The notes beneath the pieces were generated by a model, which did no database searches, was not told the DNA's origin, and was given only the letters and a program-made list of their open reading frames with translations. From Phycisphaerales bacterium (GTDB lineage Bacteria; Planctomycetota; Phycisphaerae; Phycisphaerales; UBA1924): a stretch of DNA of 64,000 bases. A program made the translations under genes and the position numbers. Position 1 is the first letter of the stretch, and every line of letters begins with the position of its first letter. Where the stretch lies: positions 186,001 to 250,000 of the forward strand of contig JAJDDK010000004.1 in the NCBI GenBank assembly GCA_029260345.1. The letters run 5' to 3'. Below are positions 10,369 through 36,566 of the stretch, piece by piece.

Positions 10369-10440
10369 GGGCGTCAGCCACAGGCGCGCCTAGAGTTGGC
10401 CCCGGCGGACAACCGCCGCCAGTCTTCGGAGCCTCCTCTT

Positions 10441-12075
10441 ATGCCGCCGCGCCTGCCCTCCATCACTGACTTCCTCACCGATGGCTCGCTCATTCGAGTG
10501 TGCGATGCGACGCAGCGCATCACCGGCCTGCCGGTGTCCCTGCGCGATGCGCGCGGCCGCGTCATCGTGCGCGGCGACGGTGAACGCGCTTACGCCGTGC
10601 AGACCGCCGGCCTCGAAGCAACCACCGAAGTCTCCGCGACGCTCAATGCGCCCCTCACCATCAGCAGCGGCGTCATCGGCTCCATCAGTGTGGAGATCGC
10701 CGGCGATCACGTCGATCCCGAACACCACGGCAACATCCGCGAGTTCATCACCAATCTCGCCGCAACCGTCGCCGAAGTGTGCGAAGGCCAGACGCAGTTG
10801 CGCCGACGCGTGGACGAGCTCGGCGTGCTGTACCGCCTGTCCTCCATGCTCGTCGGCGCTACGACGGTGGACGCCGTCCTGAAGAACGCGCTCGAGTCCG
10901 CTGTCTCCATGCTCGGCGCATCGGCCGGCTCCATCCGCATTCTCGACGCTGAACGAAGCATTCTGCAGCTGCGCGCCAGCGTCGGACTTTCGACCGCATA
11001 CATCGCCGCGGCGGGCGCCCTGCCCGCGGACCGCGCCTGCGATTGCGACGCACTCAGCGGAAGCGTCGTCATCATCCCCGACATTCGCGAGCGCGAAGAC
11101 TTCATACACGTCGATGCGTTCGACGCCGAACAACTGCGCGGCATGGCCAGTGTCGGACTCTGCTTTCGCGGCGAAACACTCGGCCTCATGCGCCTCTACA
11201 GCAGCGATGCGATGGACCTCAGCGCCGAAGAACGCGACATGCTGCAATCCATTGCGCAGCAGATCGCGGCGGCCATCGCCAACGCGCGCCTGCTTGAAGC
11301 AGAAGCAGATGCACGCCGCGTGCGCCGTCAGCTCGAACTTGCCTCCGATGTGCAGCGCCGCATGCTTCCGGCGCGCCTCCCGGAAGTGGAGAAGCTCGAT
11401 ATCGCGGCACGATACGAATCCTGCTTCGAACTCGGAGGCGACTTCTACGACGTGTTCTGCCATGAAGGCAACGTCGCCATGACGCTGGGCGATGTTGTCG
11501 GCAAGGGCTTGCCCGCGGCGCTTCTGATGAGCAGCGTGCGCGCCACCATTCGCGCGCACACGCACAGCGTGGGCGATGTCGATGAAGTCATGGCCCTGAC
11601 CAACACCGCCCTCTGCCGCGACACGCTGATGAATGAGTTTGCGACGGTGTTCCTGGGCGTGATCGATCCCGCATCACTCAAGCTCGGCTACTGCAACGCC
11701 GGACACGAACCGCCAATCGTCGTGCGCGTGCCCGCGCACCGCGCCCCCACCACCGCTGATATCGACGAACTTCCCATCGGCGGCATGGTGCTCGGGGTCG
11801 ATCCGTCACAGCGTTACCAGCAAGGTGTCTATGACCTTGAGCCCGGTGACGTCGTGCTCATTCATTCCGACGGCCTGCCCGACGCGATGAACTTTGACGA
11901 GAAACGATTCGGCAAACGCCGAGTGCGCAAGGCGCTGCTGGACATCCTCGCGTTTGATCCGCATGCCACCGCGGATCGCATCGCCAACCACATCCTGTGG
12001 GAAAGCCGCCGATTCACCGGACTCGCCCGCCAGACGGACGACACCACCATCCTCGTCGCCCGCGTCAAGCGCTGA
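10441..12075 (+). CDS. GAF-domain SpoIIE/RsbU-type PP2C serine phosphatase
   Basis: This 544-residue protein has three parts. Residues 1-115 resemble a PocR-like ligand-binding domain (SITDFLTDGSLIRVCDATQ and a following D-x-G-R segment). Residues about 130-285 form a GAF domain. Residues about 298-540 form a SpoIIE-type PP2C phosphatase, with VQRRMLP, GGDFYDVF, LGDVVGKG, YCNAGHEPP and HSDGL as the successive metal-site and fold motifs. Family members dephosphorylate anti-anti-sigma proteins in partner-switching cascades. No anti-anti-sigma or kinase gene is next to it, so the target is unknown. ATG 10441 is preferred, with GGAG 9 nt upstream; an in-frame TTG at 10396 would add 15 residues. 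Confidence 0.9.
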   Translation: MPPRLPSITDFLTDGSLIRVCDATQRITGLPVSLRDARGRVIVRGDGERAYAVQTAGLEATTEVSATLNAPLTISSGVIGSISVEIAGDHVDPEHHGNIREFITNLAATVAEVCEGQTQLRRRVDELGVLYRLSSMLVGATTVDAVLKNALESAVSMLGASAGSIRILDAERSILQLRASVGLSTAYIAAAGALPADRACDCDALSGSVVIIPDIREREDFIHVDAFDAEQLRGMASVGLCFRGETLGLMRLYSSDAMDLSAEERDMLQSIAQQIAAAIANARLLEAEADARRVRRQLELASDVQRRMLPARLPEVEKLDIAARYESCFELGGDFYDVFCHEGNVAMTLGDVVGKGLPAALLMSSVRATIRAHTHSVGDVDEVMALTNTALCRDTLMNEFATVFLGVIDPASLKLGYCNAGHEPPIVVRVPAHRAPTTADIDELPIGGMVLGVDPSQRYQQGVYDLEPGDVVLIHSDGLPDAMNFDEKRFGKRRVRKALLDILAFDPHATADRIANHILWESRRFTGLARQTDDTTILVARVKR

Positions 12076-14917: not shown

Positions 14918-15976
14918 TCATCGCAGCAGCCCCCGCCGGCGCAGCACGTCCAGCACGAGCGTTTCAATCTCCATGTCGGACTGCGCCAGTAAATGAATCA
15001 CATCGCGCCGGGCGCAGAATTGCCGCAATTGGTCGCAGTACGCCGCGAGGTTCTTCTTGTACTGATCGAGCAGCGGCTTCGAAATCGTCACTTCCGCCAG
15101 GTCCGCGTCTTCGATGTCTTTCAACCGCAAATCGCCGCCGATCTCCGGCGTCACTTCCTGCGGCGACAACACCTGAATCGCAAACACGTCGTACCCGCGA
15201 CCCAGCAAATACCGCAGTCCCTGCTCGTATCCTTCTTTGAAGAAAAAGTCCGACAGCACCACCATCACACCCTTGCCCGTGCGCGACAGCGCAATCCGCT
15301 TCGCGGCTTCGGCGAAGTCCGTTCCGCCAGACGGCTCGAGGTCGCACAGCCATGACCCCATCTCATGCACGCGCCGGCGTCCGCGCAGGTTGCGCAACGT
15401 GGACACAACCCCCGAATTGTCATTCACCGGTGGGACGGGCGTCTCGCCCGTCTTCCCGTGTGCCACTGCTCTGCGAGCAGTGCTCTCGAAATCTGACTCT
15501 TTGGTGGAATCCGCTTCCTTATCCCGACGCGTCGGGACGGTTCGTACTTGACCCACTCCCCCGATCGCGGTCAGCGACACGCGGTTGTAATTGATCAGCC
15601 CGATGTACCCTAGCGCCGCAGCGGTCTCCTGCATAAACCGAAACTTGCTCGGCTCGCCGCAATCGCTGCTGGCAGACGCATCGATCACGATGTGCAGCGA
15701 CAAGTCTTCCTCTTCAAGAAACATCTTGAGGAAAAGCTTGTCGAGACGCCCGTAGATGTTCCAGTCAATGAAGCGAAGATCATCCCCAACCACATACGGC
15801 CGGTGATCCGCAAACTCGACGCTTTCACCGCGCCGCTTGCTGCGCCGCTCGCCCTTAAGTTTGCCGGCGAACACTTTTCGCGAGGCCAGATCCACGCGCG
15901 ACAGCTTCGCGACAAACTCCGGCTTGAGGAGGTCGTCGATCGACTTGGGTCGGGATGATGTGGGAGCGCGCAGCAT
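14918..15976 (-). CDS. DUF58 protein with an in-frame repeat insertion
   Basis: DUF58 proteins are the usual partners of MoxR ATPases; they carry a VWA-like fold. Seen here are the family block YVVGDDLRFIDWNIYGRLDKL near residues 62-82, the FLEEEDL motif, and an intact MIDAS DASAS near residue 100. The usual length is about 290-310 residues; this one has 352. The excess is a hydrophilic stretch at about residues 145-184 (ESTARRAVAHGKTGETPVPPV and flanks), which is the translation of a palindromic repeat at 15427-15540. The gene starts 3 nt after the moxR stop. The insertion keeps the frame, so the gene is probably still functional. Confidence 0.9.
   Translation of the reverse strand: MLRAPTSSRPKSIDDLLKPEFVAKLSRVDLASRKVFAGKLKGERRSKRRGESVEFADHRPYVVGDDLRFIDWNIYGRLDKLFLKMFLEEEDLSLHIVIDASASSDCGEPSKFRFMQETAAALGYIGLINYNRVSLTAIGGVGQVRTVPTRRDKEADSTKESDFESTARRAVAHGKTGETPVPPVNDNSGVVSTLRNLRGRRRVHEMGSWLCDLEPSGGTDFAEAAKRIALSRTGKGVMVVLSDFFFKEGYEQGLRYLLGRGYDVFAIQVLSPQEVTPEIGGDLRLKDIEDADLAEVTISKPLLDQYKKNLAAYCDQLRQFCARRDVIHLLAQSDMEIETLVLDVLRRRGLLR
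15427..15540. repeat. Composite palindromic repeat inserted in the DUF58 coding sequence
   Basis: Three palindromes lie in a row: ggtgggacgggcgtctcgccc (15429-15449), cactgctc-tgc-gagcagtg (15464-15482) and tcccgacgcgtcggga (15522-15537). The first two modules recur at 17031-17102, in the opposite order, and the first recurs at 27239-27259. The insert is read through in frame on the minus strand. Confidence 0.85.
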
Positions 15977-15979
15977 GGA

Positions 15980-17014
15980 TTACGCAGGCATCCCCACCGG
16001 CTCCTTCACCGTCTCCTTCAGAATCGTCCGCACAATGTCATCCGGATCGATCCGGTCCGCCTCCGCTTCAAAGTTCAGCACGAGGCGGTGCCGCAGCGCC
16101 AGCGGCGCGATGTGATCGATGTCTTTGTACGACACGTGGTACCGCCCGTCCGTCAGCGCTTTCACCTTGCCACCCAGAATCAGCGCCTGCGCGGCTCGCG
16201 GGCTCGCGCCAACGCGGATGTACCGGTTGGTGATGCTCGAAGCATGTTCGCCCTCGGGGTGCGTCGCGAGCACGAGTCTCGCCGCATACTCCTTCACGTG
16301 TGGCGCCACGATCGCATTGCGCACCAGATCCTGAGCCGCCAAGATTCCAGCACCGTCAATCTTCGAATCCACACTTGTTTCAAACGCGCCGGTCGTGCGA
16401 TCCAGAATCGTCATCAGATCCGCGAGCTGCGAATAGCCGACGACGAGTTTGAACAGGAAGCGGTCAAGCTGCGCTTCGGGCAGCGGGTACGTCCCCTCCT
16501 GCTCGATCGGGTTCTGCGTCGCCAGCACGAAGAACGGTTTGTCGAGCTTGCGCGTCACACCGCCGATGGTCACGCTTCGCTCCTGCATGGCTTCGAGCAG
16601 GGCGGACTGCGTCTTGGGTGTGGCGCGGTTGATTTCATCAGCGAGGATCACCTGCGCGAAGATCGGGCCTTTCTGGAACGTGAAGCCGCGCCGGCCGGTG
16701 TCGGGGTCTTCGGTGATGATGTTCGTGCCGATGATGTCCGCGGGCATGAGGTCCGGCGTAAACTGAATGCGCGCAAACGGCAGATGCACAGTGTCCGCCA
16801 GTGTGCGTACAAGCAGCGTCTTGCCAAGGCCGGGCACGCCTTCGAGCAGCACGTTGCCCCCGGCGAAGAGCGCGATCAGCACGCCTTCGACGATGAGGTC
16901 ATGCCCGACGATGACTTTGCCGATCTCGGCCTGCAAGCCGCTGAATGTTTCGCGGAAGGCGTCGCACTTGGCCTGCACTTCGGCGGGAGTCACTGCGTTT
17001 TCGTTCACTGCCAT
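15980..17014 (-). CDS. MoxR-family AAA+ ATPase
   Basis: MoxR ATPases are chaperone-like AAA+ proteins that work with VWA proteins to assemble or mature enzyme complexes and envelope structures. In this 344-residue protein the Walker A motif GVPGLGKT lies near residue 60, the Walker B ILADEINR near 123, the sensor 1 ATQNPIEQEGTYPLPEAQLDRF near 165, and the lid domain follows. Length and order match the family. Downstream on the same strand are the DUF58 and BatA-type genes, the classic MoxR neighbourhood. Upstream is the giant VWA gene, separated by 89 nt that are largely filled by a palindromic repeat. Confidence 0.95.
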   Translation of the reverse strand: MAVNENAVTPAEVQAKCDAFRETFSGLQAEIGKVIVGHDLIVEGVLIALFAGGNVLLEGVPGLGKTLLVRTLADTVHLPFARIQFTPDLMPADIIGTNIITEDPDTGRRGFTFQKGPIFAQVILADEINRATPKTQSALLEAMQERSVTIGGVTRKLDKPFFVLATQNPIEQEGTYPLPEAQLDRFLFKLVVGYSQLADLMTILDRTTGAFETSVDSKIDGAGILAAQDLVRNAIVAPHVKEYAARLVLATHPEGEHASSITNRYIRVGASPRAAQALILGGKVKALTDGRYHVSYKDIDHIAPLALRHRLVLNFEAEADRIDPDDIVRTILKETVKEPVGMPA

Positions 17015-17103: not shown

Positions 17104-20100
17104 TCATCGTTCATCATCCTTCCGATCCTGATCGTCCATCTCATCACGGGCCCGCCGCTTCGCCTTGAGCAATCGCGACATGCCTTCTTCGCCTTCGTCG
17201 GCGGTCGGTTCCTTCTTTGTCTTGCGCTCGATCGGCGCTTCCAGCCCCAGCGGCTTCGTGGGCGGCGTTTTCGCCTCATCCGCTTCGAACTTGATGCTGG
17301 AGGTGTCGCGCTGCTGCGACATGCCGCCCATGGTCGCCTGTCCGGCGCCGCGACCGGCGAGTTTTTTCTGCGTTCGCTCGCGTGCGGCTCGCATCGCGCC
17401 AATTTGTTCTTCACTGGCGCGATCGCGCTTCGAGAATCCGCGCCGCACGAATGCGGCCATGGCCCGCACATCGATGCGCACACGCCGCACGCCTGCGTCG
17501 ATCAAGAAGACCGACAACGCGGCAATCGCGACCGGCAGCCAGATCGGCGCCGAGCGCACCGGCATGGACAATCCTTCGCGCGCAAAGAGTGTCGGGCCGT
17601 CAATGACTTGCTCATCACTGAGAATGCGTCCGCCCGTGGTTTGCGCCACTTGGCGCAGCAGAGGCAAATTGTCGCGCAGGAAGCGATGTTCTTCGGCGAA
17701 TGATCGCGACACGGCGATCTGCGCCGAGCCGCGCACGATGCCGGCGCCATCCGCATCCGGCGCGTCATAGCGCATGTTCACAAGGTATGAACCCGCGTCG
17801 TCCGCACGAAAACGCCCTTCGTATCGGCCGGGGCCGGTTTGGCGCATCGTCACCTGTTCCGATTCCAGATTCGGCTTCACCACGCGCCCAAGGAACTGCG
17901 CAAAGTTCATGCGCTCACCCGATGCATTCAGCGCTTCCACCACAAGCACCGTGTCATCACCGTCGCGCTCGGTGTACACCGTCAGGTTGCCGGAGCCGCT
18001 CGGGCGCATCGCCCAACGCAGGTGCTGTGCCCAAAAACTCTGCGAACCATCCCATGCGGGCCAGCTCGGCGCCCAGCGCGTCGCTGAATCTGATGTGAAC
18101 GCCACGGTGCGCCCAAGGCCGTACTGCCACTGCGCCAGAATCGGGTCATCCTGTTCACTGCGCAATGACACGAGCGACAAACCCTCGCGATCCGCTGTGA
18201 TGACATAGCCCGCGATGGGCGGCACGCCGTGAATGCCGCGCATGCCTTCGGCCGCGACGTTGACGATCTTCGGCGTGAACGGGTCGCCTTCCCACACCAG
18301 CGACCGCTTCACCGTCTGCGCTTCCTTGATGAAGATCTGCGGCAACTGCTTTACGCTGTATTGAAACGGCACGGCATAGAACTGCCCGCCGGTCATCTGC
18401 GCGATGCCCTGCATCTTGCGCATATCTGGCGAATTCATGCTCCCGCCATGCGGAAACACGGCCACCGTGCTGATGGTGATGCCGGCGTCGACAAACCGCC
18501 GCACGAGCGCCTGCCCCGGTCCCGAGGGATCGCCGTCGGAAATAACAATGCAGTGCTTTTGTCCGGCGCTAACGCCATTCAAACCGGTGAGCGCGGCGTT
18601 CATCGCGCTGTTGAAGTCCGGCATATCCCCGAACGACAGATTGTCGATGGCGCGATTCACTTCGAACCCGTCGCCGACCTCCGCCATCGGGAAGATCCAG
18701 CCGGCGCCGCCCGCCTGCCACGAATACTCCAGCACGCCGACGAGATCGAGGCGCGACAGTGCCCCCACCGCAGCTCGCGCCACTTCGCGCCCCGCCGCGT
18801 TGCCGTCCGGCATCTCGCATGAGTGCATGATCAGCGCCAGTGCGCCCCGCGGCATCACGCGCTTCTGCGGCGGGTCCATCTTCACCGGCATCGCATCGGC
18901 CAGCGGTGAACCGATCCAGCCGCCCGCGCCATACGACTGCGGCCCGCCGATCATCACCAGCCCGCCGCCCAGATCATGCACGTACGAGCGCAATTCGTCC
19001 TGCTGCTTCTGCGTGAACTCCCATGCGGGCGTATCGACCAGCACGATCGCGTCGTATGCACCAAGCTCGATGAGTGAATCGTGGCCTTGCGAGGCCGGGC
19101 GCGACTCCGCCGTGATGTCAGCGCGATCGAGCGCACGAATAATTGGCTCCGCCGCGAGATCAGCGCCTTGCCCGACATAAATCAGCACGCGCCCCTGTTC
19201 GGCGACAAACGTTACCGCGTCCTGGCGATTGTTTTGCGGGATCGCATCGTCACTCGCCACCACCGGCTCGAAGAACGCCTCGAACCGCTGCGGCCCGGTG
19301 CTGGTCAGCATGACCGGGATCGTCACCGTGTTGGCGCCTTCGGCCAGTTCAATCGTCGCTCCGAGACCGGTCGCTTCGGGATCAAGATCAATCGGTTGAT
19401 CGTTGAGTGTGAGATTGAGGCGGCCGATCGTCGGCGCCGTGGCGGTCAGGACGAATCGCACATTGACTGTTTCGCCGCGCCGCGCCGTTGGCGGCGTGAT
19501 GAGGTCTTCGAGAATCACTTCGCTGTCGTGCGAGTAGCCGACGACGTACACATCGATTGGCACACCCGCCGCTGCCGCACTCTGCGCCGCCGCCAGAAGG
19601 CTGCCGGTTGTTTCATTGCCATCGGAGATCAACACCAAGCGTAAAGCCGCATCTTCCGGCGAGCTCGCCATTGCCAGGCGCACGCCAGCCGCGAGATTCG
19701 TCGCATCCAGATCGCCCGCATCGCCGACTTCAATCGTGCGCACGCGTTCGCTTGGCAAGGCCTGAACCAGCGCTTCGCGAGCCGCGGAGACAATGCCAAC
19801 GCGATCCGTTGCGCGGGCGTCTTCGGAAGCGCGCTGCAGAACGGCATTTGCTTCGATCCGAGCATCCAGCGGCACGGAGCGGCTCGCATCGACAATGACA
19901 CTCACCGCAACATCGTCACTCGTGTCGCGCCACACCGGCTCAGCCAGCGCGACCGCCAGCAGCAAGATCACCATCGCGCGCAAGCCGATGGCGAATCGGC
20001 GCGTCACCGGGCCAAGCCCCGCGAGGCTGCCGCGCGCCAGCCACCATGCCACAACCCACAGCAGCGGCGCCAGCAGCAACCAGAGCGGCGACCGAAATTC

Positions 20101-20118
20101 AATCGGGCCGAGGATCAT
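17104..20118 (-). CDS. Giant VWA-domain membrane protein, paralogue of the gene at 3906
   Basis: This 1004-residue protein has the same order of parts as the one at 3906-7022: two N-terminal membrane helices, a VWA-like domain with MIDAS DASRS near residue 77, a beta-rich region, the YVHDLGGGLVMIGG segment near 385, a second VWA-like domain, a membrane helix near 870-890 and a charged tail. The second MIDAS is degenerate: where the paralogue has DSSGS, this protein has HSCEM near residue 432, so it probably cannot bind the metal in the same way. Its ATG overlaps the stop of the permease-NHL gene by 4 nt, which implies translational coupling. It lies directly upstream of moxR. Confidence 0.85.
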   Translation of the reverse strand: MILGPIEFRSPLWLLLAPLLWVVAWWLARGSLAGLGPVTRRFAIGLRAMVILLLAVALAEPVWRDTSDDVAVSVIVDASRSVPLDARIEANAVLQRASEDARATDRVGIVSAAREALVQALPSERVRTIEVGDAGDLDATNLAAGVRLAMASSPEDAALRLVLISDGNETTGSLLAAAQSAAAAGVPIDVYVVGYSHDSEVILEDLITPPTARRGETVNVRFVLTATAPTIGRLNLTLNDQPIDLDPEATGLGATIELAEGANTVTIPVMLTSTGPQRFEAFFEPVVASDDAIPQNNRQDAVTFVAEQGRVLIYVGQGADLAAEPIIRALDRADITAESRPASQGHDSLIELGAYDAIVLVDTPAWEFTQKQQDELRSYVHDLGGGLVMIGGPQSYGAGGWIGSPLADAMPVKMDPPQKRVMPRGALALIMHSCEMPDGNAAGREVARAAVGALSRLDLVGVLEYSWQAGGAGWIFPMAEVGDGFEVNRAIDNLSFGDMPDFNSAMNAALTGLNGVSAGQKHCIVISDGDPSGPGQALVRRFVDAGITISTVAVFPHGGSMNSPDMRKMQGIAQMTGGQFYAVPFQYSVKQLPQIFIKEAQTVKRSLVWEGDPFTPKIVNVAAEGMRGIHGVPPIAGYVITADREGLSLVSLRSEQDDPILAQWQYGLGRTVAFTSDSATRWAPSWPAWDGSQSFWAQHLRWAMRPSGSGNLTVYTERDGDDTVLVVEALNASGERMNFAQFLGRVVKPNLESEQVTMRQTGPGRYEGRFRADDAGSYLVNMRYDAPDADGAGIVRGSAQIAVSRSFAEEHRFLRDNLPLLRQVAQTTGGRILSDEQVIDGPTLFAREGLSMPVRSAPIWLPVAIAALSVFLIDAGVRRVRIDVRAMAAFVRRGFSKRDRASEEQIGAMRAARERTQKKLAGRGAGQATMGGMSQQRDTSSIKFEADEAKTPPTKPLGLEAPIERKTKKEPTADEGEEGMSRLLKAKRRARDEMDDQDRKDDER

Positions 20119-22691
20119 GGCGTTGATGATCCTCGATTTGGCTGTGTCAGGCGCGGCTGGCGCGCGGGATCAAAACTCTGCACACGGTTGTTGCCGGAAT
20201 CGAGCACAAACGCGCGATCACCCGCCGCCGCGACGCCCCACGGCGTGCGCAGTTCGCCGACTTCAAACCCCGGTCCGCCATAGACGCCGATCGAGACGCC
20301 GCGCTCGACATCGAGGCGCTGCACGCGATTGCCGCCGAACTCGGAAACGAGAATCGTGCCGTCATCGAGCATCGCCAGTCCATACGGATAGCGGAACTCG
20401 CCCGGCGCTTCTCCGGGAAGCCCATCGCTGCGCCCAATCCAGCTGATGAGTTCGCCGTCGAGTGTGAACCGCCCGACGCGGTGATTGGAAGAGTCCGTGA
20501 CGATCAATTCGCGCCTGTCCTGATCGACCACGATCGACTGCGGGCGCGCAAACTGCACCGGCTCACCACTCGCGTTCGAGCCTTCTTCACCGAACGAAAA
20601 CAGAAACTCATGCGAAGCGTCAAATGCACTGATGCGTTCACTGCCGCCGTATTCACTGACGTAGATGCGCTCGATCGCTCCGACATCGTCGACAAGAAAC
20701 GCGACATCGGTCGGATAGATGAACTCGCCGGGCCCGGTCCCGTACGCGCCCCACGCGGTGACGAGTTCGCCATCCTCACTGAACACCGTCACGCAATGTT
20801 CATGCGTATCGGCGACGTAAATCAACCCGTCCGGCCCAACGGTGATGCCCGTCGGCTTACCACGATCAAAGGCCGGCATGGTCCAGCCGCCGTGGTGTTT
20901 TCCGTCGTGCGAGAACCGCTGCACCCGCGCGGTGCGATCAATGATCCAGATAGAGTCGTCAGTCACGTCGATGCATCGCGGATAGACAATCTGGCCCGGC
21001 GCGTTTCCAACTTCACCAAATGCTTGCGCACCGCGGATCGCCGCGACTTCACCTGGTGCGGCTCGGTCACAACCTGCCAACATCATCGTTCCCGCGAGCG
21101 TGATCAGCGGCATTGCACGCGGAAGGGACCATCGCGACACGCCGCGCATCAGGATGGCGATCAATCCGACCACGATCAATGCGCCGACGGTCAGCCAGGC
21201 GCCTGCGGCGCTGAGTTCCTCCATCCGTAGGTAGTGCAAAAAGTTGAGCAATGTGTTTGCGAGACTATCGAAGCCGGGTGGGGCGAGCATGACCGTGGAT
21301 TCGATCTCGTGCATGCTCAAGAACCCCATGGCGAGCCCCACACCGGCGATGGCTCCCGCGGTCCCCGCGCCTTGTGACTGCCACCACGCGCGAATGGACG
21401 CTTCCCCGCTCAATTCGCGCAGGTCCGCCACATCGCGCGGCTCAAGTAGCGCGATCCACCATCCCACGAACGCCGCGAGCACACCAAATCGCATCGTGTG
21501 AGCCGCAATGAGCCCAGCGTCAGTTTCCACAATCCACTGAAGTACACCAAAACGCGACGCGGACTGAAACGCCGCGCCCACCAATACTCCCGGCACAACC
21601 GCCGTTGCGCCGAGCAACACGATCATCACGGTTGCCGCGATTCGCTGTGCGCGCCCGGCGTGCATTCGAAAACCAGACAACGAACCGGCTGCGATCACCA
21701 TGCCGCACACTCCGACGCCAAGCCCGACGATCGCGCTTTCTCGTAGCGCCGGCGACATCGCCACGATCGCGCGGCGGAGTGAACTCCATTCACGAAGGCT
21801 CCATAAGAAAACTACCGCCGGTAGAACGGCTGAGGCCGTCCACACGGTCAAGCTGGTCATTCCGATGAAAGGGGATGAGACGCCGCGCCGTTCGCGCCAG
21901 TCAACGGCCCGCGCGCCGGAGCGCCGAATCGTCAGAGCCACCAACCCACCTCCGCCAAGCACGCCAATCGCCACCAGCGGCATTGACGCAATCCATGCAA
22001 GCGAAGAATCGCCCGATTCATTCAGCAGGCGCCAGATGGTGATGGCATACGTTTCCACGCGCGCCACGTGCAGCGGCACCGCGGAGCCAAGCATAAGGAG
22101 TGAAATGACGCCGACCGACAGCGCCATGGCGGGCGCCAACGCAATTCCCCAAAACAACCCTCGCCGCCAGCGCGATGGTTGCACCGCTCGCACCGCATCC
22201 ATTTCATCATTCGTGATTCGTCGAGCCCCGACGCCAACGATCACCGCGCCGATCGGCCACGCCCACAGCGACAATCCCCCGATCGCCTGCACCGCATTGA
22301 GCGCACGAATCGCGTCCGGCCCGGCACGCTCCGCCCAATCGCCCAGCGCCGTGCCTGGCGCACGAAGCAATCCCCAGCTTGCGTAGACGAGATAGGTCGG
22401 CAAAAGCAGCGGCGTCATCAGAAGCGCGCACAGCGCGGGGGACGAGCTTCGCACAACCCACGCGGCTGGCGCCGCCAATGCCGTGGCCAAGACTCCAATC
22501 GCCATCGCCACCACGATGGTGCGCACCAGGAGCGCGCCATCCATCCATGACCATACCGAGATGGACTTCGATATTGGAATGCGGCCGTCGCGCATCGCCA
22601 TCGCAGCGCCCAGCACGATGAGGACGCCGCACGTCGCGACCAGCACGAACGCCGCCATCGTCAGCGCGTCGGGTGCGACGCGCCGCTTCAC
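20115..22691 (-). CDS. ABC permease of Fe(III)-type fused to an NHL-repeat propeller
   Basis: The first 514 or so residues look like a complete two-domain permease of the iron/thiamine importer family, with about 12 hydrophobic segments. There is an EAA-like loop near 165-190 (DEMDAVRAVQPSRWRRG) and the family-like stretch TVMLAPPGFDSLANTLLNFLHY near 470. The rest, about 344 residues, is a beta-propeller of NHL repeats (repeated YP-x-D/G-V, IYVADT, NRVQ and GEF motifs). At the junction, Met about 515 is followed by a basic stretch, a hydrophobic core and the lipobox LAGC, that is, a complete lipoprotein signal (ATG at 21149). The propeller may therefore be a fused domain or separately initiated. 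It overlaps the binding-protein gene and the giant VWA gene by 4 nt each. Confidence 0.85.
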   Translation of the reverse strand: MKRRVAPDALTMAAFVLVATCGVLIVLGAAMAMRDGRIPISKSISVWSWMDGALLVRTIVVAMAIGVLATALAAPAAWVVRSSSPALCALLMTPLLLPTYLVYASWGLLRAPGTALGDWAERAGPDAIRALNAVQAIGGLSLWAWPIGAVIVGVGARRITNDEMDAVRAVQPSRWRRGLFWGIALAPAMALSVGVISLLMLGSAVPLHVARVETYAITIWRLLNESGDSSLAWIASMPLVAIGVLGGGGLVALTIRRSGARAVDWRERRGVSSPFIGMTSLTVWTASAVLPAVVFLWSLREWSSLRRAIVAMSPALRESAIVGLGVGVCGMVIAAGSLSGFRMHAGRAQRIAATVMIVLLGATAVVPGVLVGAAFQSASRFGVLQWIVETDAGLIAAHTMRFGVLAAFVGWWIALLEPRDVADLRELSGEASIRAWWQSQGAGTAGAIAGVGLAMGFLSMHEIESTVMLAPPGFDSLANTLLNFLHYLRMEELSAAGAWLTVGALIVVGLIAILMRGVSRWSLPRAMPLITLAGTMMLAGCDRAAPGEVAAIRGAQAFGEVGNAPGQIVYPRCIDVTDDSIWIIDRTARVQRFSHDGKHHGGWTMPAFDRGKPTGITVGPDGLIYVADTHEHCVTVFSEDGELVTAWGAYGTGPGEFIYPTDVAFLVDDVGAIERIYVSEYGGSERISAFDASHEFLFSFGEEGSNASGEPVQFARPQSIVVDQDRRELIVTDSSNHRVGRFTLDGELISWIGRSDGLPGEAPGEFRYPYGLAMLDDGTILVSEFGGNRVQRLDVERGVSIGVYGGPGFEVGELRTPWGVAAAGDRAFVLDSGNNRVQSFDPARQPRLTQPNRGSSTP

Positions 22692-23794
22692 TGCTCCAAG
22701 ACCTCGCGGGCGATTTCGACGGCTCGGTTCATGTCGGGCGCAATGACATCAAATGATTCAAATCGATCAAACTTGTTCTTCAGCGGCAGCATGTACTCCG
22801 TCGCTTCAACCTGCACGCCGGGACGAATCGGCGTGTTGTGCGAATCACTCGCGGCGAGCATCGCTTCCACTTCAGGGCTGAGCAGAAACTTGATCAATTC
22901 ATTCGCTTCAGCTTCATTTGGCCCGCCGGCGACGCGCGCCACCGTGTTGGGAATGAGAAGTGGCCCTGCGAGTGTCATGTCGATCATGCTGAAGGAAGCG
23001 CCCCGCGTAAACGCATGCTGCGCCAGTTTCATTTCAACGGGCCAGCCGTTGCGCTGCCCGGAGTACACGTCGTCGGTGTCGGTTAATCCAATGATCGCTT
23101 CGCCGGAGGCCACCGCCTGCACGACGGCGGAGTTGCCATCCACCAGTCGCACGCCGTTGCGCTTCAACTCTTCAAGCCATTCCCGGTACGGCCCCTCGCC
23201 CCACAAGTTGAGCATCGCCGCGAAGTGGCCGCGCGTCGTGCCGAACTCCGGGCGGGCAATCACCACGCGATCCTTGAACCGCGGATCGACAAGATCGATC
23301 AATTGCTCGGGGGCCGAGTTCTTATTCAGGACATTCGAGTTGTAGACAATCGCACGTCCGCGCACGCCGAAGCCGAACCACCGATCTTCGCGCCCGCGCC
23401 AGCGCTGCGGCCAGCCGGCGAACTCTTCAAGTTCAATCGGCGCCAGCACGTCTTCACCGGCAAGCACTGACGTCATGAAACATTCGCTCGACCAGAACAC
23501 ATCCGCTCGCGGCGTGCCTTGCGCATGCTCCTGCCGCAATCGCTGCGCCAGCCCGGTCGTCTTGGTCGCTTCGGTGTCACCAAGCGCCACGACCGTGATG
23601 CCGGTCTGTTCTTCGAAGGCGTCGATGATTGGTTTTGCCACGTAGTCATCGGCGGAGTAGTACAGGACGACTTCGCGCCGAGGCGTTGCGCTGTCCGAAC
23701 CCGCTTGCGAGCACGACAGTGTGACCGTCGCACCAATGACAACGGCGATCGCGAAGAATGCCCGCAACGCTGCGCGTCGATTGAAATAGATCAT
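22688..23794 (-). CDS. ABC-type substrate-binding lipoprotein, Fe(III)-type family
   Basis: The start gives a lipoprotein signal with a hydrophobic core and the lipobox TLSC near residue 28. The mature protein of about 340 residues has the family pattern of iron-type binding proteins: VVLYYSADDYVAKPIIDAFEEQTGI at the start, TPRADVFWSSE near 95, GRAIVYNSN near 145, and the hinge region LNLWG--GPYREWLEELK. Known members bind ferric ions, but close relatives take other ligands, so the substrate is not certain. The gene lies 2 nt after the coiled-coil gene and overlaps the permease gene by 4 nt. No ATPase gene is nearby. Confidence 0.9.
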   Translation of the reverse strand: MIYFNRRAALRAFFAIAVVIGATVTLSCSQAGSDSATPRREVVLYYSADDYVAKPIIDAFEEQTGITVVALGDTEATKTTGLAQRLRQEHAQGTPRADVFWSSECFMTSVLAGEDVLAPIELEEFAGWPQRWRGREDRWFGFGVRGRAIVYNSNVLNKNSAPEQLIDLVDPRFKDRVVIARPEFGTTRGHFAAMLNLWGEGPYREWLEELKRNGVRLVDGNSAVVQAVASGEAIIGLTDTDDVYSGQRNGWPVEMKLAQHAFTRGASFSMIDMTLAGPLLIPNTVARVAGGPNEAEANELIKFLLSPEVEAMLAASDSHNTPIRPGVQVEATEYMLPLKNKFDRFESFDVIAPDMNRAVEIAREVLEQ

Positions 23795-23796
23795 GT

Positions 23797-25488
23797 TTAC
23801 TCAGGTTCGGATTCGCTCGGCGGCGCTTCGGGCGCCGTTTCCGCCTCGGCCTTCGCCTTGAGACGGCCGAAGTAATGCTTCAGCGCATCGTGATATTCGC
23901 GCGGCGCCGTTTTGCTTTCAATCGCGTCCGCCGCAGCCTGACCGCCCGCTTCGACGAGTTCAACAAACTGCGCTCTGGACTCGCCGCGCACCTGCTCGCC
24001 CTCAACCATCGTGGTTCCGATGATCGGGCCTTCGCCGGTCTTGCTCGGCGCTTTCACTTTCGTCGTGTTGGATTGCGCATCGCTGGCGGACATCTGCGAA
24101 CCGCCCTGGCCGCGTCCGGCTTTGCCCTCGTCCCAAAGCTGGAACGGGCTCATCTCGCCTTCGCCGCCACCGAGGCACTGCGACAGGTCATTGATCTTGC
24201 CCCAGACAAAGTCCTGAGCGGCGCCGATCTGCTGCATCTCCTGCGCCATCATCTCAAGGTCGTTGAGCATGTCCGCCATCTGGCCCATGCCCTGCATGCC
24301 ATCGCCGCCTTCGCCCATCTGCTGCGCGGCTTGGTTCATCGCTTGCGCCATTTGCCCGGCGTTTTCGCACGCGCCCTGCGTGCACTCGGCCTGATCCATG
24401 AGCTGCTGCTTCTGCTGATCGCTCAACCCTTGCGCATTCTGAATCGCTTCGCGCAGCGCGTTGGGATCATTCATCACCGCCGGATCAATGCCCGCCTGCT
24501 TCAGTTGGCGCTCAAGCTCTTTGCGCTCCTGCGCCAGCTTCTCAAGCTGCTCAGCGAGATTTTCAAGCTGCTCCTGGAGCTTTTTCTTCTGCTCATCGGA
24601 CAGGTTTCCCTGCGCGATTTGATTCATGAGCTCGCCGAGCTTTTCGCTGGCCTTTGCGAAGTCGCCGCGCTGCAGCGCGCTGACCACTTCGTTGGCGGGG
24701 CCCATGCCGGGCTGGCGCAACTGCCGCATCTGGTCCTTGATTGCATCCAGCACGCCGTTTTCCGAATTGGACTTCAATGCATCAAGCCGATCCTTCGCCG
24801 CGGTCAATTTCCGAATCGCGGCGCGGCGAATTTCATCCGGCGTGGACGGGTTTGGCGTTTCCAGCGCGCCGTCTTCAGGGCCATCAATGTCTTCCTCACC
24901 AAGCTTGGCGAGCATCGTGCGCAATTCTTCGTCGATCGTTTCCGCTTCCGCCTGCGCTTCGGCAATCTCCTGACGTTCGGCGGCGTCTGCTTCGCGCTCC
25001 CGGTCACGACCGAACAAATCCGCCTGCGGCACCGCGAACCAGATCACCGCAAACGCGACGGCCGCCAGCGCCGGCAAGGGCCAGCGCTGCGGGAATGACC
25101 ACGGCAACGCGCGGCGCAAGTCAACGCCCTTGGCGCGGCGCTGCGCATCTTCGATGGTGGCGACGCTCCACGGATCATTGCGATCTCCGAGTGAAAGCGC
25201 CGTGGAAAGTGATTCACGAAGTTCAGCGCGTTCGTCGATCAGACGCGCTACGGCGGCGCGATCACGGGCCGCGATCGTCGCGATGATCAGCGAGGCCAGA
25301 ACCGCGCCTATGCCGGCGGCGATCCACGCCGCCGTCCAGTCCATCGGGATGGCTGCGAGTTGTTCAAGCAGTCGGGCGGCGACCAGCGCCACCAGCGCAA
25401 TCGCCATTGTGATCGGCAATGACCGAATAAGGCGGTCAAGGAACAGCCGGCGAGCCGCGCGGCGGAGGACGATGTTGACGTCATGCAT
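23797..25488 (-). CDS. Membrane-anchored coiled-coil protein, paralogue of the gene at 1563
   Basis: This is the first gene of the seven-gene block, with a GGAGG site 8 nt before its ATG. Hydrophobic segments lie at about residues 24-42, 52-70 and 135-152. The part between them includes ERAELRESLSTALSLGDR, which aligns in position with DRALDLDDRLGSAISLQQR in the gene at 1563. The remaining 400 residues are strongly helical and charged. A run of QKKKLQEQLENLAEQLEKLAQ lies near 300-335, and a Gln/Met-rich stretch follows. It lacks the long Pro-rich region of its paralogue. Likely a scaffold beside the envelope VWA proteins; function unproven. Confidence 0.8.
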   Translation of the reverse strand: MHDVNIVLRRAARRLFLDRLIRSLPITMAIALVALVAARLLEQLAAIPMDWTAAWIAAGIGAVLASLIIATIAARDRAAVARLIDERAELRESLSTALSLGDRNDPWSVATIEDAQRRAKGVDLRRALPWSFPQRWPLPALAAVAFAVIWFAVPQADLFGRDREREADAAERQEIAEAQAEAETIDEELRTMLAKLGEEDIDGPEDGALETPNPSTPDEIRRAAIRKLTAAKDRLDALKSNSENGVLDAIKDQMRQLRQPGMGPANEVVSALQRGDFAKASEKLGELMNQIAQGNLSDEQKKKLQEQLENLAEQLEKLAQERKELERQLKQAGIDPAVMNDPNALREAIQNAQGLSDQQKQQLMDQAECTQGACENAGQMAQAMNQAAQQMGEGGDGMQGMGQMADMLNDLEMMAQEMQQIGAAQDFVWGKINDLSQCLGGGEGEMSPFQLWDEGKAGRGQGGSQMSASDAQSNTTKVKAPSKTGEGPIIGTTMVEGEQVRGESRAQFVELVEAGGQAAADAIESKTAPREYHDALKHYFGRLKAKAEAETAPEAPPSESEPE

Positions 25489-29318: not shown

Positions 29319-30363
29319 TACGCTCCCGCCCCGCGCGGAGCGCACCAACATGCTTGGCGCCTCCGAGCGAAACCTGAAGATGCTGCGGGAAGCGCTCGGC
29401 GTCAACATTTCGGCTCGGGATCGCACCGTGAAGGTCTCCGGCGAGGCGCCTGCCGTCGCCGCCGCCCGTCGTGTGCTTGATCACCTTTCCGATGCCGCCG
29501 AACGCGGTCGTGTGCTGTCGCGCGTCGAAGTCTTGGACCTCATCACCGAAGCGAGCCGCCGCGCCGAGGAAGACGCGATCGAAGATGCCGACTCCGCAGA
29601 CACGGATCGCCTACTTCGCGCCGCGTGGGATGACTCGCTTGATGTCTATTCCGGCGGCCGGCCGGTGCAGCCGCGATCTGACAATCAGACGGAGTACCTC
29701 GAATCCATCCGCAACAACGACCTCGTCTTCGGCATCGGCCCCGCGGGCACCGGCAAGACGTATCTCGCCGTCGCTGCGGCGGTGCATTTCCTGAAAGCCG
29801 GCGCCGTCAAAAAAGTCATCCTTGTGCGCCCCGCCGTCGAAGCTGGCGAAAAGCTCGGATTCCTCCCCGGCGACATGGAAGCCAAGGTCAATCCGTACCT
29901 GCGCCCGCTTTTCGACGCGCTCCACGACATGATGGACTTCGCCACCATCAAACGCTTCATGCTGCACGACGTGGTCGAAGTGGCGCCGCTGGCGTTTATG
30001 CGCGGTCGCACGCTGAATCGGGCGATCGTCATCCTCGACGAAGCGCAAAATACGACCAAGTCTCAAATGAAGATGTTCCTCACTCGCATGGGGCGAGGCT
30101 CACGGATGATCGTCACCGGCGATATGACGCAAACGGACCTTCCTCACCCCGGCGACAGTGGCCTCGCCGACGCCGTACGACGCCTTAGTGGCGTTCCGGG
30201 GGTCGCCTGCGTGCATCTGACCAAACGGGACATTGTTCGTCATGATTTGGTGCAGCGCATCGTGGAGGCCTATGGCGAAGAGGCCGATGCAGTGAACGCC
30301 GCGTTGAACAAGGTCCGCGAATCGGATCGCTCAACCGGCCATCAGGACCGCATGAATGGCTGA
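29296..30363 (+). CDS. phoH: PhoH-family ATPase
   Basis: PhoH proteins are P-loop ATPases of the phosphate-starvation or RNA-metabolism type. In this 355-residue protein the Walker A GPAGTGKT lies near residue 150, RPAVEAGEKLGFLPGD near 180, and the Walker B VILDEAQNTT near 245. An N-terminal KH-like region precedes the ATPase. The start is set at ATG 29296, giving a normal N-terminus; a TTG at 29275 would add seven residues. The next gene, a 7TM-HD phosphohydrolase, overlaps by 8 nt, an association seen in many bacteria. The usual third partner ybeY does not follow. Confidence 0.95.
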   Translation: MSTSETVITLPPRAERTNMLGASERNLKMLREALGVNISARDRTVKVSGEAPAVAAARRVLDHLSDAAERGRVLSRVEVLDLITEASRRAEEDAIEDADSADTDRLLRAAWDDSLDVYSGGRPVQPRSDNQTEYLESIRNNDLVFGIGPAGTGKTYLAVAAAVHFLKAGAVKKVILVRPAVEAGEKLGFLPGDMEAKVNPYLRPLFDALHDMMDFATIKRFMLHDVVEVAPLAFMRGRTLNRAIVILDEAQNTTKSQMKMFLTRMGRGSRMIVTGDMTQTDLPHPGDSGLADAVRRLSGVPGVACVHLTKRDIVRHDLVQRIVEAYGEEADAVNAALNKVRESDRSTGHQDRMNG

Positions 30364-32755
30364 CGCCCAGAAGTCCAAAATAACCAAAGGCGCCGCCAAA
30401 TCGACGTCGCACGCCGCCGTCAGTCGGCGCGCCGAATTGCGCAAGAACCTGCGCAAGCCGGAGTCCCGCTGGCGCACCATTTTGCTGCGCCCAGACCTCA
30501 CGTATTCCATCCCGATCGCGCTCGTGTTCGCCATTCTCGCTGGCGTGTTGACCGCCTGGGTGCGCGAACAGCCGCTCGTGGAGCCTGGCCAATACATGAC
30601 CCAGACGCGCAGTGTGCGCGTGCCATTCCGCGTCGAAAACGTCGCGGCTCTCGAAGACAAGCAGCGCAACGCGCGCCAGAACACGGCGCGCGTGTACGTC
30701 GCGGCGCCGGCGGTTTTTGACGAAATCGAAAACGGATTGACGCGCCTGCCCACCGCGCTCGCCGATGCGCAAACGCTCGACAGCGTCGCCTCCGAAATTC
30801 GCGAGACATTCCAACTGACCGACGCCGAACTCGCCGCGCTTCGCACCGAAGCCGTCGCCGGTGACGCCAGTCAGGCATGGCGATCGAAAGTCGAAGCGCT
30901 CGTCGAGCAGCTCTACGCGACGCCGCTGCTCGACAACGAGGCGTACCAACTCGAACAAACGTCCGGCAGTCGGCAGTGGATTGAGATTCGTGTGCCCGGT
31001 CGCGATCCGGCGCGGCTGCTCAAAGGCCGCACGATCAACCTCGCCAGCGCCCAGCTCGCCACCACCTTGCGCCAGGCCGTTCTGCAAGCCGGCTTCGCCG
31101 AACCGGTTGCGTCCATGATCGCGGGATACCTCGCGCGCAACGCCAAACCAACGTTCATCTTCGACGCCCGCGCCACCAGCGCTGCGCAGGACGCCTCCGC
31201 GGCCGCCGTCGAACCGGAATACATCACCTACTCCGTCGGTCATGTCATTTACGACAGTGGCGACCGTCTGACGCGCGATGAATACTCGTTGCTGCTCGCG
31301 GAACACAAGGCGTACGGCGATGAGATCCCGAAAGCAGCGTTGTGGGGCCCGCGCCTCGGCGCGATGGCCGAATCACTGCTGATCACCATCGGGTTGTCGC
31401 TCTACATCGCGGCGTTCTGCATGCGCATTCGGCGCAATCCGCTGCGTGTGCTGGCCGTCGCCGCCATGCTGCTCGGCGCGCTGGCTCTTGCCGGCGTCAT
31501 CGCCATTCAAAGCCCGGCGCTGATTCCGCTGGCGGCCTCCGCGCCGACGGCGTTTGTCGCGGGCATTCTCGTGATTGCCTACAACCGCGGCACGGCCCTG
31601 GCGATTGGTTCACTGCACGCCGCGCTGGTGGTCGTCGCGCTTGATCAACCCGCCACCATGATGATCCCGGCGCTGGCCGGTGTGGTCGCCGTGACATGGA
31701 CGTTGAACGACGTGCGCCACCGCAACGACCTCGTCCGCGCGGGGCTCGCCACCGGCGCGACGCTCGCTGTCGCCGTCGCGGCCGTCGCTCTGATGGATCG
31801 GCCGCTCTCGCCCGGCCTGTGGCGCACGCTGCTGATTGATTCAAGCTGGGCGCTCGGCGCCGGCGTCGCGATCGGCGTCGTCACACTCGCGCTCCTGCCG
31901 ACGATCGAACGTGTGTTCGACATCATCACGGGCATGACGCTGATCGAGCTGCGCGACCCCAAACAGCCATTGCTGCGCGAACTTCAACAACGCGCCCCCG
32001 GCACGTACAACCACTCCCTCGCCGTTGCGAACATCGCCGAAAATGCGGCGGAAGCCGTCGGCGCCAAGTCACTGCACCTCTACGTCGGCGCGCTGTACCA
32101 CGACATCGGAAAGATGAACAAGCCGGACTATTTCGTCGAGAATCAGTCCGGCGGCTACAACCGGCACTCCAAGCTTTCCCCGGCGATGTCGCTGCTTGTC
32201 ATTGTTGGGCACGTGAAGGACGGCATTGAGCTGGCTCGTGAGTATGTGCTGCCGCGTTCGCTGCACCACTACATCGAATCGCACCACGGCACGACACTGG
32301 TGGAGTACTTCTTCCATCAGGCGCAAAAGCAGGCGGACGAAGCCAAGTCATCCGCGCCCGATGAGATGGAATACCGCTATCCCGGCCCGAAGCCGCGCAC
32401 GAAGGAAGCCGCGATCCTGATGTTGACCGACGCCGTCGAGTCCGCGACGCGCGCCCTCAAAGAACCGGCGCCCGCTCGCATCGAAGCCCTCGTGCGGCAG
32501 CTCGCGCGCAAACGCCTCGAAGACGGCCAGTTCGACGAGTGCGATCTCACACTGCGCGAGTTGCAGGTGATTGAATCATCGATCATCAAGAGCTTGACGA
32601 GTATTTACCACTCGCGCATCGCGTATCCCGGGGCGGACACCAAGTCCGAATCCCGCCGCACAAGCGCCGCGGGCGAGCAGCCCGAAGCGCCGAAGACGGA
32701 CGACTTCGATCCGAAGTCCACGCAGTTCGAAAAGACGATGTCGCAGTCGGCGTGA
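30356..32755 (+). CDS. 7TM-HD family phosphohydrolase (PgpH-like)
   Basis: In Firmicutes PgpH degrades cyclic di-AMP. This 799-residue protein has the PgpH layout. One membrane helix lies at about 45-65, followed by an extracytoplasmic 7TMR-HDED-like region to about 300. Seven hydrophobic helices span about 340-515. The HD domain contains GTYNHS near 550 and the catalytic HD pair in YHDIGK near 582. The C-terminus is extra-polar. It overlaps phoH by 8 nt and is the last gene of that transcript. I see no gene for a cyclic-di-AMP cyclase, so the substrate is inferred from the family. Confidence 0.93.
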   Translation: MADAQKSKITKGAAKSTSHAAVSRRAELRKNLRKPESRWRTILLRPDLTYSIPIALVFAILAGVLTAWVREQPLVEPGQYMTQTRSVRVPFRVENVAALEDKQRNARQNTARVYVAAPAVFDEIENGLTRLPTALADAQTLDSVASEIRETFQLTDAELAALRTEAVAGDASQAWRSKVEALVEQLYATPLLDNEAYQLEQTSGSRQWIEIRVPGRDPARLLKGRTINLASAQLATTLRQAVLQAGFAEPVASMIAGYLARNAKPTFIFDARATSAAQDASAAAVEPEYITYSVGHVIYDSGDRLTRDEYSLLLAEHKAYGDEIPKAALWGPRLGAMAESLLITIGLSLYIAAFCMRIRRNPLRVLAVAAMLLGALALAGVIAIQSPALIPLAASAPTAFVAGILVIAYNRGTALAIGSLHAALVVVALDQPATMMIPALAGVVAVTWTLNDVRHRNDLVRAGLATGATLAVAVAAVALMDRPLSPGLWRTLLIDSSWALGAGVAIGVVTLALLPTIERVFDIITGMTLIELRDPKQPLLRELQQRAPGTYNHSLAVANIAENAAEAVGAKSLHLYVGALYHDIGKMNKPDYFVENQSGGYNRHSKLSPAMSLLVIVGHVKDGIELAREYVLPRSLHHYIESHHGTTLVEYFFHQAQKQADEAKSSAPDEMEYRYPGPKPRTKEAAILMLTDAVESATRALKEPAPARIEALVRQLARKRLEDGQFDECDLTLRELQVIESSIIKSLTSIYHSRIAYPGADTKSESRRTSAAGEQPEAPKTDDFDPKSTQFEKTMSQSA

Positions 32756-33854: not shown

Positions 33855-36566
33855 TTAGATTGTTGAACTTGCGGCGGCTTCGGAAGCGAATGTGAATCGC
33901 CCACCTTCGAAGTCGATCACCACCCGCGATCCTTCAGCGATCTCCCCGGCCAGTAGCCGCGACGCCAGCGCGTTTTCGATGCGCTGCTGAATCACACGCT
34001 TGAGCGGGCGGGCGCCGAAGGCCGGGTCCCATCCTTCAGCCGCAAGCTGCGCACGCGCCGCTTCGGTCCATTCAATGAAAAGGCCGCGCTCCGCGAGCCG
34101 CTTCTGCAGGAGATCAAGCTGGATGTTGACGATCTGCTCGATCTGCTGCTTCTTGAGCTGGTGAAACACGATGATCTCATCAATGCGGTTGAGCAGTTCG
34201 GGACGCATGAAGCCTTGATGCACATCGAGGTCGAGGCGCGCCCGCATGTCCATGCCTTCACCGGCTGAACCCTTACTTTCAATATCCGCGCCGGGGCCAC
34301 GACGCACGAGATCGCGCACCGCCGCTTCGATTTCCCAGTCCTCAGCGCCCTCTTCGGTCATTTGCTGAATGCGCTGTGAGCCGATGTTGCTCGTCATCAC
34401 GACGATGGTGTTGCGGAAATCCACCGTGCGTCCGTGACCATCGGTCAGTCGCCCATCATCCAGCATCTGAAGCAGAATATTAAAGACGTCCGGGTGCGCC
34501 TTTTCGATTTCATCGAGCAGCACCACCGCATATGGGCGCCGGCGAATCGCTTCGGTCAAACGACCGCCTTCTTCGTAGCCCACATACCCCGGAGGGGCGC
34601 CGATCATGCGCGCCACCGCGTGCTTTTCCATGTACTCGCTCATGTCAATGCGCACGAGCGCCTTTTCCGTATCAAACAAGAACTGCGCCAGCGATTTGCA
34701 CAACTCCGTCTTGCCGACGCCCGTCGGCCCGAGGAACAAGAACGAGCCAATCGGCCGATTCGGATCACCCAACCCGGCGCGGCTGCGGCGCACCGCATCG
34801 CTCACCGCGCGCACGGCCTCCGCCTGGCCAACCACGCGCTCCGCCAGCTCCTCTTCCATACGCGTCAATTTCTCGCGCTCGGACTCGACCAATCGCGACA
34901 CGGGAATACCCGTCCACGCGCCAACCACGGACGCGATCTGCTCGGGGTCCACCTCTTCCTTCACCAGCGTGTCGCCCTTCTCGCGCCGTTCTTTCAGACG
35001 CTGCTCGGCGCGATCAAGATCCTTTTCAAGCTCGCGCAACTCACCGTACTGAATGCGAGCCGCGGCTTCGAGGTCACCGCGCCGCTGCGCCTGCTCCAGC
35101 TCAACACGCTTGGAATCCATCTGCTCCTTGACGACTTTGACCGCATCAAGGTCGGTGCGCTCTTCGTCCCAGCGGGCCGTCAGGGCGCCGTCCTCTTCCC
35201 GCAGATCTGCAAGCTCACGCTCCACGCGCTGCAACTGCTTCTTCGAAGCTTCGTCTCCCTGCTCGGTCTCGAGCTTCAGCGCTTCGCGTTCAATTTCAAG
35301 CTGCATGATGCGCCGACGTAGCTCGTCGAGCTCCATCGGCATTGAATCAATCTCAATGCGCAAACGCGATGCGGCTTCATCCACCAGATCAATCGCCTTA
35401 TCGGGCAGGAAGCGGTCGGAGATGTAGCGATTGCTCAGATTCGCAGCGGCGAGCAGCGCTCCATCCTGAATGCGCACGCCGTGGTGCGCTTCGTAGCGCG
35501 CTTTGAGGCCGCGCAGAATCGCGACGGTGTCCTCGACGCTTGGTTCATTCACGTACACCGGCTGAAAGCGGCGCTCAAAGGCAGCATCTTTCTCGATGTG
35601 CTGGCGATACTCATTCAATGTCGTCGCGCCGATGCAGCGCAACTCGCCGCGCGCCAGCGCGGGCTTCAGCAGATTGCCCGCCGAAACCGCGCCTTCCGCT
35701 TGCCCCGCGCCGACGATCGTGTGCAACTCATCGATGAACAGGATGACTTGGCCTTCACTCGCCGCGACTTCGCGCAACACGGCTTTGAGGCGTTCTTCGA
35801 ACTCGCCGCGGAACTTCGCTCCGGCCAGCAACTGGCCGACATCCAGCGCGACGATCTTCGCGCTCTTCATGGAGTCCGGACAGTCGCCGTTGACGATGCG
35901 CAGGGCGAGGCCTTCGGCGATGGCCGTCTTTCCGACGCCGGGTTCGCCGATGAGCACGGGGTTGTTCTTCGTGCGGCGCGAGAGCACCTGCATGCAGCGG
36001 CGGATTTCTTCATCGCGCCCGATGACAGGGTCGAGCTTGCCCTGTTGGGCTTTTTCGGTGAGATCGATGCCGTACTTCTTCAGCGCTTCGTAGGTGGATT
36101 CCGCGTTGGGATCGTTGACGCTGTCCACGCCGCTGGCGGCGCGCAGCTCTTTGATGGATTTTTCGAGTTGTTTGCGATCGGCGCCCATGACGGTGAGCGC
36201 TTCCTTGGCGCTGGAGTTCACGTCCGCCAGCGCAAGGAGCAGATGTTCCGTTGACGTGTACGAATCGCCGAGTTTCTTCGACTCCTGCTCCGCCTTTTGC
36301 AGAACCTGCACGAGCGACGTTCCGGTCTGCGCCATTGCGCCCGAAACCGTCGGCATGCGGCCCAGTTCCGCCTCCACCACCTGCCGCAGGCGCGCGACAT
36401 CCGCGCCGGTCTTCTTCAGAATGGAGACGGGCGTGCCGCCGTCTTCAGCAATGAGCGCTGAGAGCAAGTGCAGTGGCGAAATCTCGCCGTGCGAATCTTC
36501 CGCCGCGAGCGACTGGGCGTCGGCGAGCGCCTGCTGTGCCAGTGTGGTGAATCGATCAAGACGCAT
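33855..36566 (-). CDS. clpB: ClpB disaggregase
   Basis: ClpB is the AAA+ disaggregase that frees aggregated proteins with DnaK. This protein has 903 residues (usual 850-870). An N-domain comes first. NBD1 follows with Walker A GEPGVGKT near residue 207, then a coiled-coil middle domain at about 400-525. NBD2 has Walker A GPTGVGKT near 612 and Walker [16 protein letters not shown]. About 25 extra residues lie between strands in NBD2 (near 745-785), with the glycine-rich segment [15 protein letters not shown], compared with typical ClpB. A GGAGG precedes the ATG. No CIRCE element was found in the upstream 250 nt. Confidence 0.97.

Follow-up and report, generated by a model that had tools for sequence, protein, structure and literature searches.

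An importer-derived binding protein and permease-NHL module within a VWA/MoxR operon of the Phycisphaerae, with a degraded ATPase-docking motif in one permease clade

We analyzed a 64,000-nucleotide stretch of a Phycisphaerales genome (GenBank assembly GCA_029260345.1, contig JAJDDK010000004.1, positions 186,001 to 250,000 of the forward strand; the whole stretch is hereafter the window), in which genes resembling parts of an ATP-binding cassette (ABC) importer lie inside an operon for VWA proteins and a MoxR ATPase. Based on open reading frames (ORFs) and Pfam, the operon runs from a coiled-coil gene through genes for a substrate-binding lipoprotein (SBP), a permease-NHL fusion, a giant VWA protein, MoxR, and a DUF58 protein to BatA, all on the minus strand (Table 1). 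An earlier note on this DNA had described the order of the first four genes and their tight junctions, and we confirmed both, together with the coordinates. The coil and SBP genes are separated by a 2-nucleotide (nt) gap (TAA-AC-ATG), and there are 4-nt overlaps between the SBP and permease-NHL genes (GTGA) and between the permease-NHL and VWA genes (ATGA). Pfam also bears out the MoxR, DUF58, and BatA-type genes that the note placed after them, an order that relatives share; the MoxR protein scored 212 bits against AAA_3 and 43 bits against PF20030. The coiled-coil gene product matched no specific family in the Pfam scan. No ABC ATPase is encoded in the window, and the nearest one on the contig lies 83 kb off, beside an ABC-2-type exporter permease.

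Table 1. Features of the operon and of the permease-NHL fusion, in window coordinates
Feature	Position	Strand	Basis
Coiled-coil membrane protein, 563 aa, heads the block	23797..25488	-	ORF
FbpA-fold SBP, 368 aa	22688..23794	-	Pfam, AlphaFold, Foldseek
Permease-NHL fusion, 858 aa	20115..22691	-	AlphaFold pLDDT 87.3, pTM 0.87
FbpB-type permease domain, residues 20-518	21138..22634	-	Structural match to 9j4r_A and profile
Loop 1 at EAA position, EMDAVRAVQPSRWRRGLFWGIALAP, EAA motif lost	22131..22205	-	Alignment
Loop 2 at EAA position, DVADLRELSGEASIRAWWQSQGAG, A3 to R, I-LP lost	21363..21434	-	Alignment
Internal lipobox-like stretch, ITLAGTMMLAGC, Cys541 codon 21069-21071	21069..21104	-	Alignment
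Six-bladed NHL beta-propeller, residues 549-844	20160..21047	-	Pfam and model
Membrane VWA protein with GATase1-like domain, 1004 aa	17104..20118	-	Pfam
MoxR AAA+ ATPase, P-loop GVPGLGKT	15980..17014	-	Pfam AAA_3
DUF58 protein	14918..15976	-	Pfam
BatA/VWA_2 protein, 666 aa	12790..14790	-	Pfam

The permease half of the window fusion has no Pfam match, and several relatives also have none even at E = 1. Its identity as an FbpB-type permease is nevertheless secure, because the family profile matches the solved Thermus FbpB (PDB 9j4r; E = 5e-17), the AlphaFold model aligns with 9j4r_A over 479 of 490 residues (Z = 29.4) and has the double MetI-like transmembrane fold, and cassette permeases from other genomes exceed the BPD_transp_1 cut-off. 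The fold and profile matches thus rule out a misread permease. The NHL part matches PF01436 with 97 bits and is modeled as a six-bladed propeller (Z up to 38.8). It is joined to the last permease helix by a charged, then hydrophobic, lipobox-like stretch that ends at Cys541; across 33 aligned fusions this cysteine column is invariant and Gly540 is near-invariant. The features of a lipoprotein signal (charged n-region, hydrophobic stretch, and lipobox cysteine) are therefore present ahead of the NHL part. Because NHL proteins encoded as separate genes are preceded by a similar stretch, the fusion appears to be a permease joined to a lipoprotein with a retained signal sequence. This suggests a propeller that is anchored to lipid in the periplasm and perhaps released through predicted signal peptidase II processing. 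The stretch, kept inside a fused polytopic membrane protein here and at homologous loci, could be a signal peptidase II site in an internal position.

The SBP matches Pfam families SBP_bac_8, SBP_bac_6, SBP_bac_11, and SBP_bac_1. Its AlphaFold model (pLDDT 86.7) has HitA, SfuA, and FbpA as best Foldseek matches and thus the FbpA fold. The pocket motifs GDTEATKTTGL, FGTTRGH, and TDTDD also occur in ATPase-linked relatives. The last of these occupies the position of the ferric twin tyrosines, which reads NHYY in a true FbpA-type relative (L076); in the alignment against FbpA-type relatives, the twin-tyrosine iron ligands are not present in the SBP. Three aspartates here, D239, D241, and D242, are invariant, and with the tyrosines so replaced, the SBP is unlikely to bind Fe(III) in the way that FbpA does. 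The earlier note's label of a "Fe-type" lipoprotein is thus valid for the fold and does not extend to iron specificity. The residues also bear on whether the SBP and permease load ions into the VWA proteins at their MIDAS sites. Operon linkage is in keeping with such a device, and the invariant aspartates could bind a cation or cation complex. However, the FbpA metal ligands are absent and there are relatives that have the VWA genes but not the module, and we consider ion loading very improbable.

Whole-genome searches of relatives and a scan of 85k species placed the contiguous order coil-SBP-permease-NHL-VWA at 49 independent loci across the class Phycisphaerae, far beyond chance. A further 23 loci have (SBP-)permease-NHL-VWA without the full order, for a total of 72 with permease-NHL-VWA. 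At 6 loci, (SBP-)permease-ATPase occurs and NHL and VWA genes are absent. An importer-type ATPase lies within 6 kb of just 1 of the 89 permease-NHL loci and is divergently transcribed there. The permease tree follows families, as expected for vertical inheritance of the cassette. These results rule out an arrangement unique to this assembly, a mobile cassette, and an ATPase always encoded alongside. The embedding of importer parts in a VWA/MoxR operon, with no ATP-binding subunit nearby, was recognized in the earlier note and holds class-wide: the module is vertically inherited in the Phycisphaerae, set between the coil and VWA genes, without an ABC ATPase gene. We found no description of this arrangement in the open-access literature, which is not proof of novelty.

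In most of the window's family (f1), the operon is split, with coil-SBP at one locus and permease-NHL-VWA at another; after the split, the permease-NHL gene mostly keeps with VWA and the SBP gene with the coil gene. Among 61 genomes, both SBP and permease occur in 35 and neither in 21, with discordant counts of 1 and 4 (Fisher p = 2e-11, uncorrected for relatedness), and the two genes are unlinked in 27 genomes. This co-occurrence even when unlinked suggests that the SBP and permease still act together. In six genomes with the split operon (L040, L041, L044, L046, L047, and L053), a gene of a dCache/HD-GYP family, so labeled from a scan of one member (L047), lies close downstream of the SBP gene on the same strand, in most cases directly after it. 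This neighbor fits a role in sensing.

In type I importers, the permease binds its ATPase through an EAA motif located in cytoplasmic loops (PMC5082905). We scored 12 motif positions (EAA---G---------I-LP, both loops) and obtained a median of 10 for ATPase-linked permeases, 8 for basal cassette members, 10.5 for a Sedimentisphaerales-like clade, and 4 for the clade that includes the window. The 71 sequences of this window clade score 2 to 6, and the window copy, at 3 of 12, lacks the motif; the 22 sequences of a sister clade score 7 to 11 and keep it. The loop-1 proline is found in 0/71 window clade sequences versus 47/57 elsewhere, and loop-2 alanine is replaced by arginine in 62/71 versus 0/57. 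Within the window family, the EAA loops average 1.56 and 1.69 bits, against 1.66 for all columns and 2.5 to 2.9 for the gate segments. By this alignment, conservation of the EAA loops lies at or close to the average, while the substrate-side segments of the permease are strongly conserved.

The order of these changes was assessed in a FastTree phylogeny with the EAA columns left out; its support values are local only, and the alignment of the divergent loops is imperfect. A branch with support 98 sets the ATPase-linked permeases apart on one side; the members of the NHL/VWA cassette family group together (98), and so, within it, do the 71 low-motif sequences (97). The permease descends from ATPase-linked permeases, and the module derives from ordinary SBP-permease-ATPase importers. 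Since the low-motif sequences form one group, a single ancestral step is the simplest account of the EAA loss, which goes beyond what the earlier note had seen. SBP-permease-ATPase operons of the same family occur in two metagenome-assembled genomes, one from Wallbacteria (L227) and one from Planctomycetota (L228), and likely represent the ancestral importer form.

With its motor-docking signature lost, the permease points to an importer that took on another role, perhaps that of a receptor. From the sequences at hand, we see about an even chance that this importer-derived module of SBP, permease, and NHL lipoprotein has, in the window clade, ceased to depend on an ABC ATPase and acts as a ligand receptor or gate. 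Several observations weigh against this reading. The EAA score is not infallible, given that an ATPase-linked relative (L056) scores just 6 of 12, and LptFG, which lack a classical EAA motif, couple to an ATPase all the same (PMC5082905). Nor can an ATPase-free mode be read from the operon context by itself, because the sister clade has near-canonical EAA loops within the same operon. The host genome (G000) encodes a single FbpC/PotA-type ATPase (L032), which is an orphan. Finally, the module is gone from the operon at L113, L115, and L123, where the coil gene abuts the VWA gene, and in family f4 the SBP, permease-NHL, and VWA genes lie on separate contigs or loci. As the module is dispensable in several relatives and unlinked in f4, a physical partnership with VWA/MoxR is not compelled, and the assembly with VWA/MoxR that the earlier note envisaged is not supported as an obligate one, also in view of the mostly split SBP and permease genes.

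The orphan ATPase leads to the main rival, an ordinary importer energized by an ATPase encoded elsewhere and shared, in the manner of MsmK/MsiK, with its place in the operon reflecting co-expression only. Shared ATPases acting in trans are well known, MsmK being one (PMC4519317), and the pocket motifs that the SBP has in common with ATPase-linked relatives would suit such an importer. In the sister clade, energizing in trans is plausible from sequence because the EAA loops are kept and one genome (G175) has an apparently unpaired FbpC-type ATPase: no BPD permease was detected on its contig (C58), and the only other permease in that genome already has its own ATPase. Against this rival, the EAA motif of the window clade has decayed in both loops, and loop 2 carries a conserved arginine. 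Moreover, orthologues of the orphan ATPase are present in 19/19 genomes tested, including three without this permease (G017, G022, and G023), and a canonical permease, FBPB, has orthologues in 54/61 relatives. In G022 the FbpC-type ATPase directly precedes FBPB, and in G040 it adjoins the SBP of the FBPB system. We conclude from these adjacencies that the orphan is accounted for by the canonical system, although the window permease might share it. We rejected it as a dedicated partner, since its orthologues persist in genomes that lack this permease. The FbpC/AfuC-type orphan that the earlier note proposed to look for thus exists, and another permease appears to be its partner. On balance, a shared-ATPase importer ranks after the receptor or gate and is possible, if somewhat unlikely.

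The FBPB orthologue of the host genome (L036) has recognizable EAA loops and belongs to a second ATPase-less SBP/FbpB pair, with the L032 ATPase far away. ABC ATPase genes also occur a few kilobases downstream of BatA at several loci (L092, L096-L098, L100, L102, L112, L115, L116, L118, and L123). Three that we identified are of the GldA/DrrA exporter type and are also found where the permease is absent, and we rejected them as a hidden dedicated ATPase.

A second rival holds that the module and the VWA/MoxR system are neighbors by history only and have unrelated jobs. The core staying in place at the three loci that lack the module, and the dispersal in f4, fit this account, as does the occurrence of VWA-type homologues in 61/61 relatives versus SBP in 39/61 (E < 1e-40). 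Against it, the order persists class-wide at the 49 loci with tight spacing, and the permease-NHL gene mostly stays with VWA, and the SBP gene with the coil gene, even after the f1 split. We regard purely historical proximity as quite unlikely.

The module shares the SBP fold, the single-chain double permease fold, and the SBP-permease order with the FbpABC/HitABC ferric type I importers, including T. thermophilus FbpBC (PDB 9j4r). Unlike these, it has no ATPase gene, its EAA loops are degraded in the window clade, its SBP lacks the twin tyrosines, an NHL lipoprotein is fused to the permease, and it sits in a VWA/MoxR operon. In MsmK/MsiK importers and in solitary transporter subunits such as BioY, too, no dedicated ATPase is encoded with the transporter parts. 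BioY has an unrelated fold, and unlike the MsmK/MsiK permeases, which are energized in trans, the permease here has a degraded docking motif. The operon core resembles the Bat/MoxR operon around Borrelia BB0173 (PMC5700661), with the same MoxR, DUF58, and BatA-VWA genes and VWA membrane proteins, but the window adds the coil gene, the giant VWA-GATase gene, and the inserted importer-derived module. Ternary systems of MoxR, vWA, and beta-propeller occur in Planctomycetes (PMC7159879), and they too combine these three in one operon. In those systems, however, the propeller is C-terminal on the vWA protein, whereas the window has an NHL lipoprotein on the permease and a giant VWA protein with VWA and GATase1_like domains and no propeller match in Pfam. 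The MoxR P-loop of ternary systems is frequently, though not universally, GXXXTAKS, in contrast to the classical GVPGLGKT of the window MoxR, and no variable third component was seen in the window operon. Propeller placement and P-loop together rule out membership in these systems.

Other genes in the window include a second giant VWA/GATase1-like gene at 3909-7013 (+), about 6 kb past BatA, whose product is paralogous to the operon VWA protein (34% identity). A GAF-SpoIIE phosphatase (PP2C-type) gene at 10396-12072 (+), close to where the BatA gene ends, is a possible signaling neighbor. Further away are genes for a 7TM-HD receptor-type phosphodiesterase (30356-32752, +) and a ClpB/ClpC-type AAA+ chaperone (33858-36566, -).

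Returning to the receptor or gate, we propose that the VWA/MoxR operon took up an ABC importer module early in the Phycisphaerae and that, in the lineage of this genome, the permease lost its docking motif and kept its partner SBP and propeller. The SBP would still capture its ligand and dock on the permease, which, without ABC ATPase drive, would most likely serve as a ligand-responsive receptor or gate. Binding information, or the ligand passively, may then be handed to operon partners, with the VWA proteins and MoxR the likeliest candidates, via the periplasmic NHL propeller and possibly via re-specified cytoplasmic loops. We infer a physical link of the module to VWA/MoxR from gene order only. 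A bolder version, in which the permease has been severed from its ABC ATPase and re-wired through its re-specified EAA loops and the NHL domain to a MoxR AAA+/VWA machine, would make it a ligand-gated receptor or a MoxR-worked transporter and join two unrelated ATPase worlds; we think this unlikely. The interpretation in the earlier note, which saw a sensor or ion-loading device for VWA proteins in place of a normal importer, is thus partly supported.

The conserved SBP/permease module represents a testable input for the widespread MoxR/VWA operons. The conserved lipobox in a polytopic fusion raises the question of signal peptidase II processing at an internal site. The permease clade offers a naturally occurring example in which an ABC importer has apparently lost its ATP coupling site and kept its substrate side, with a close clade that keeps the EAA motif as a built-in control.

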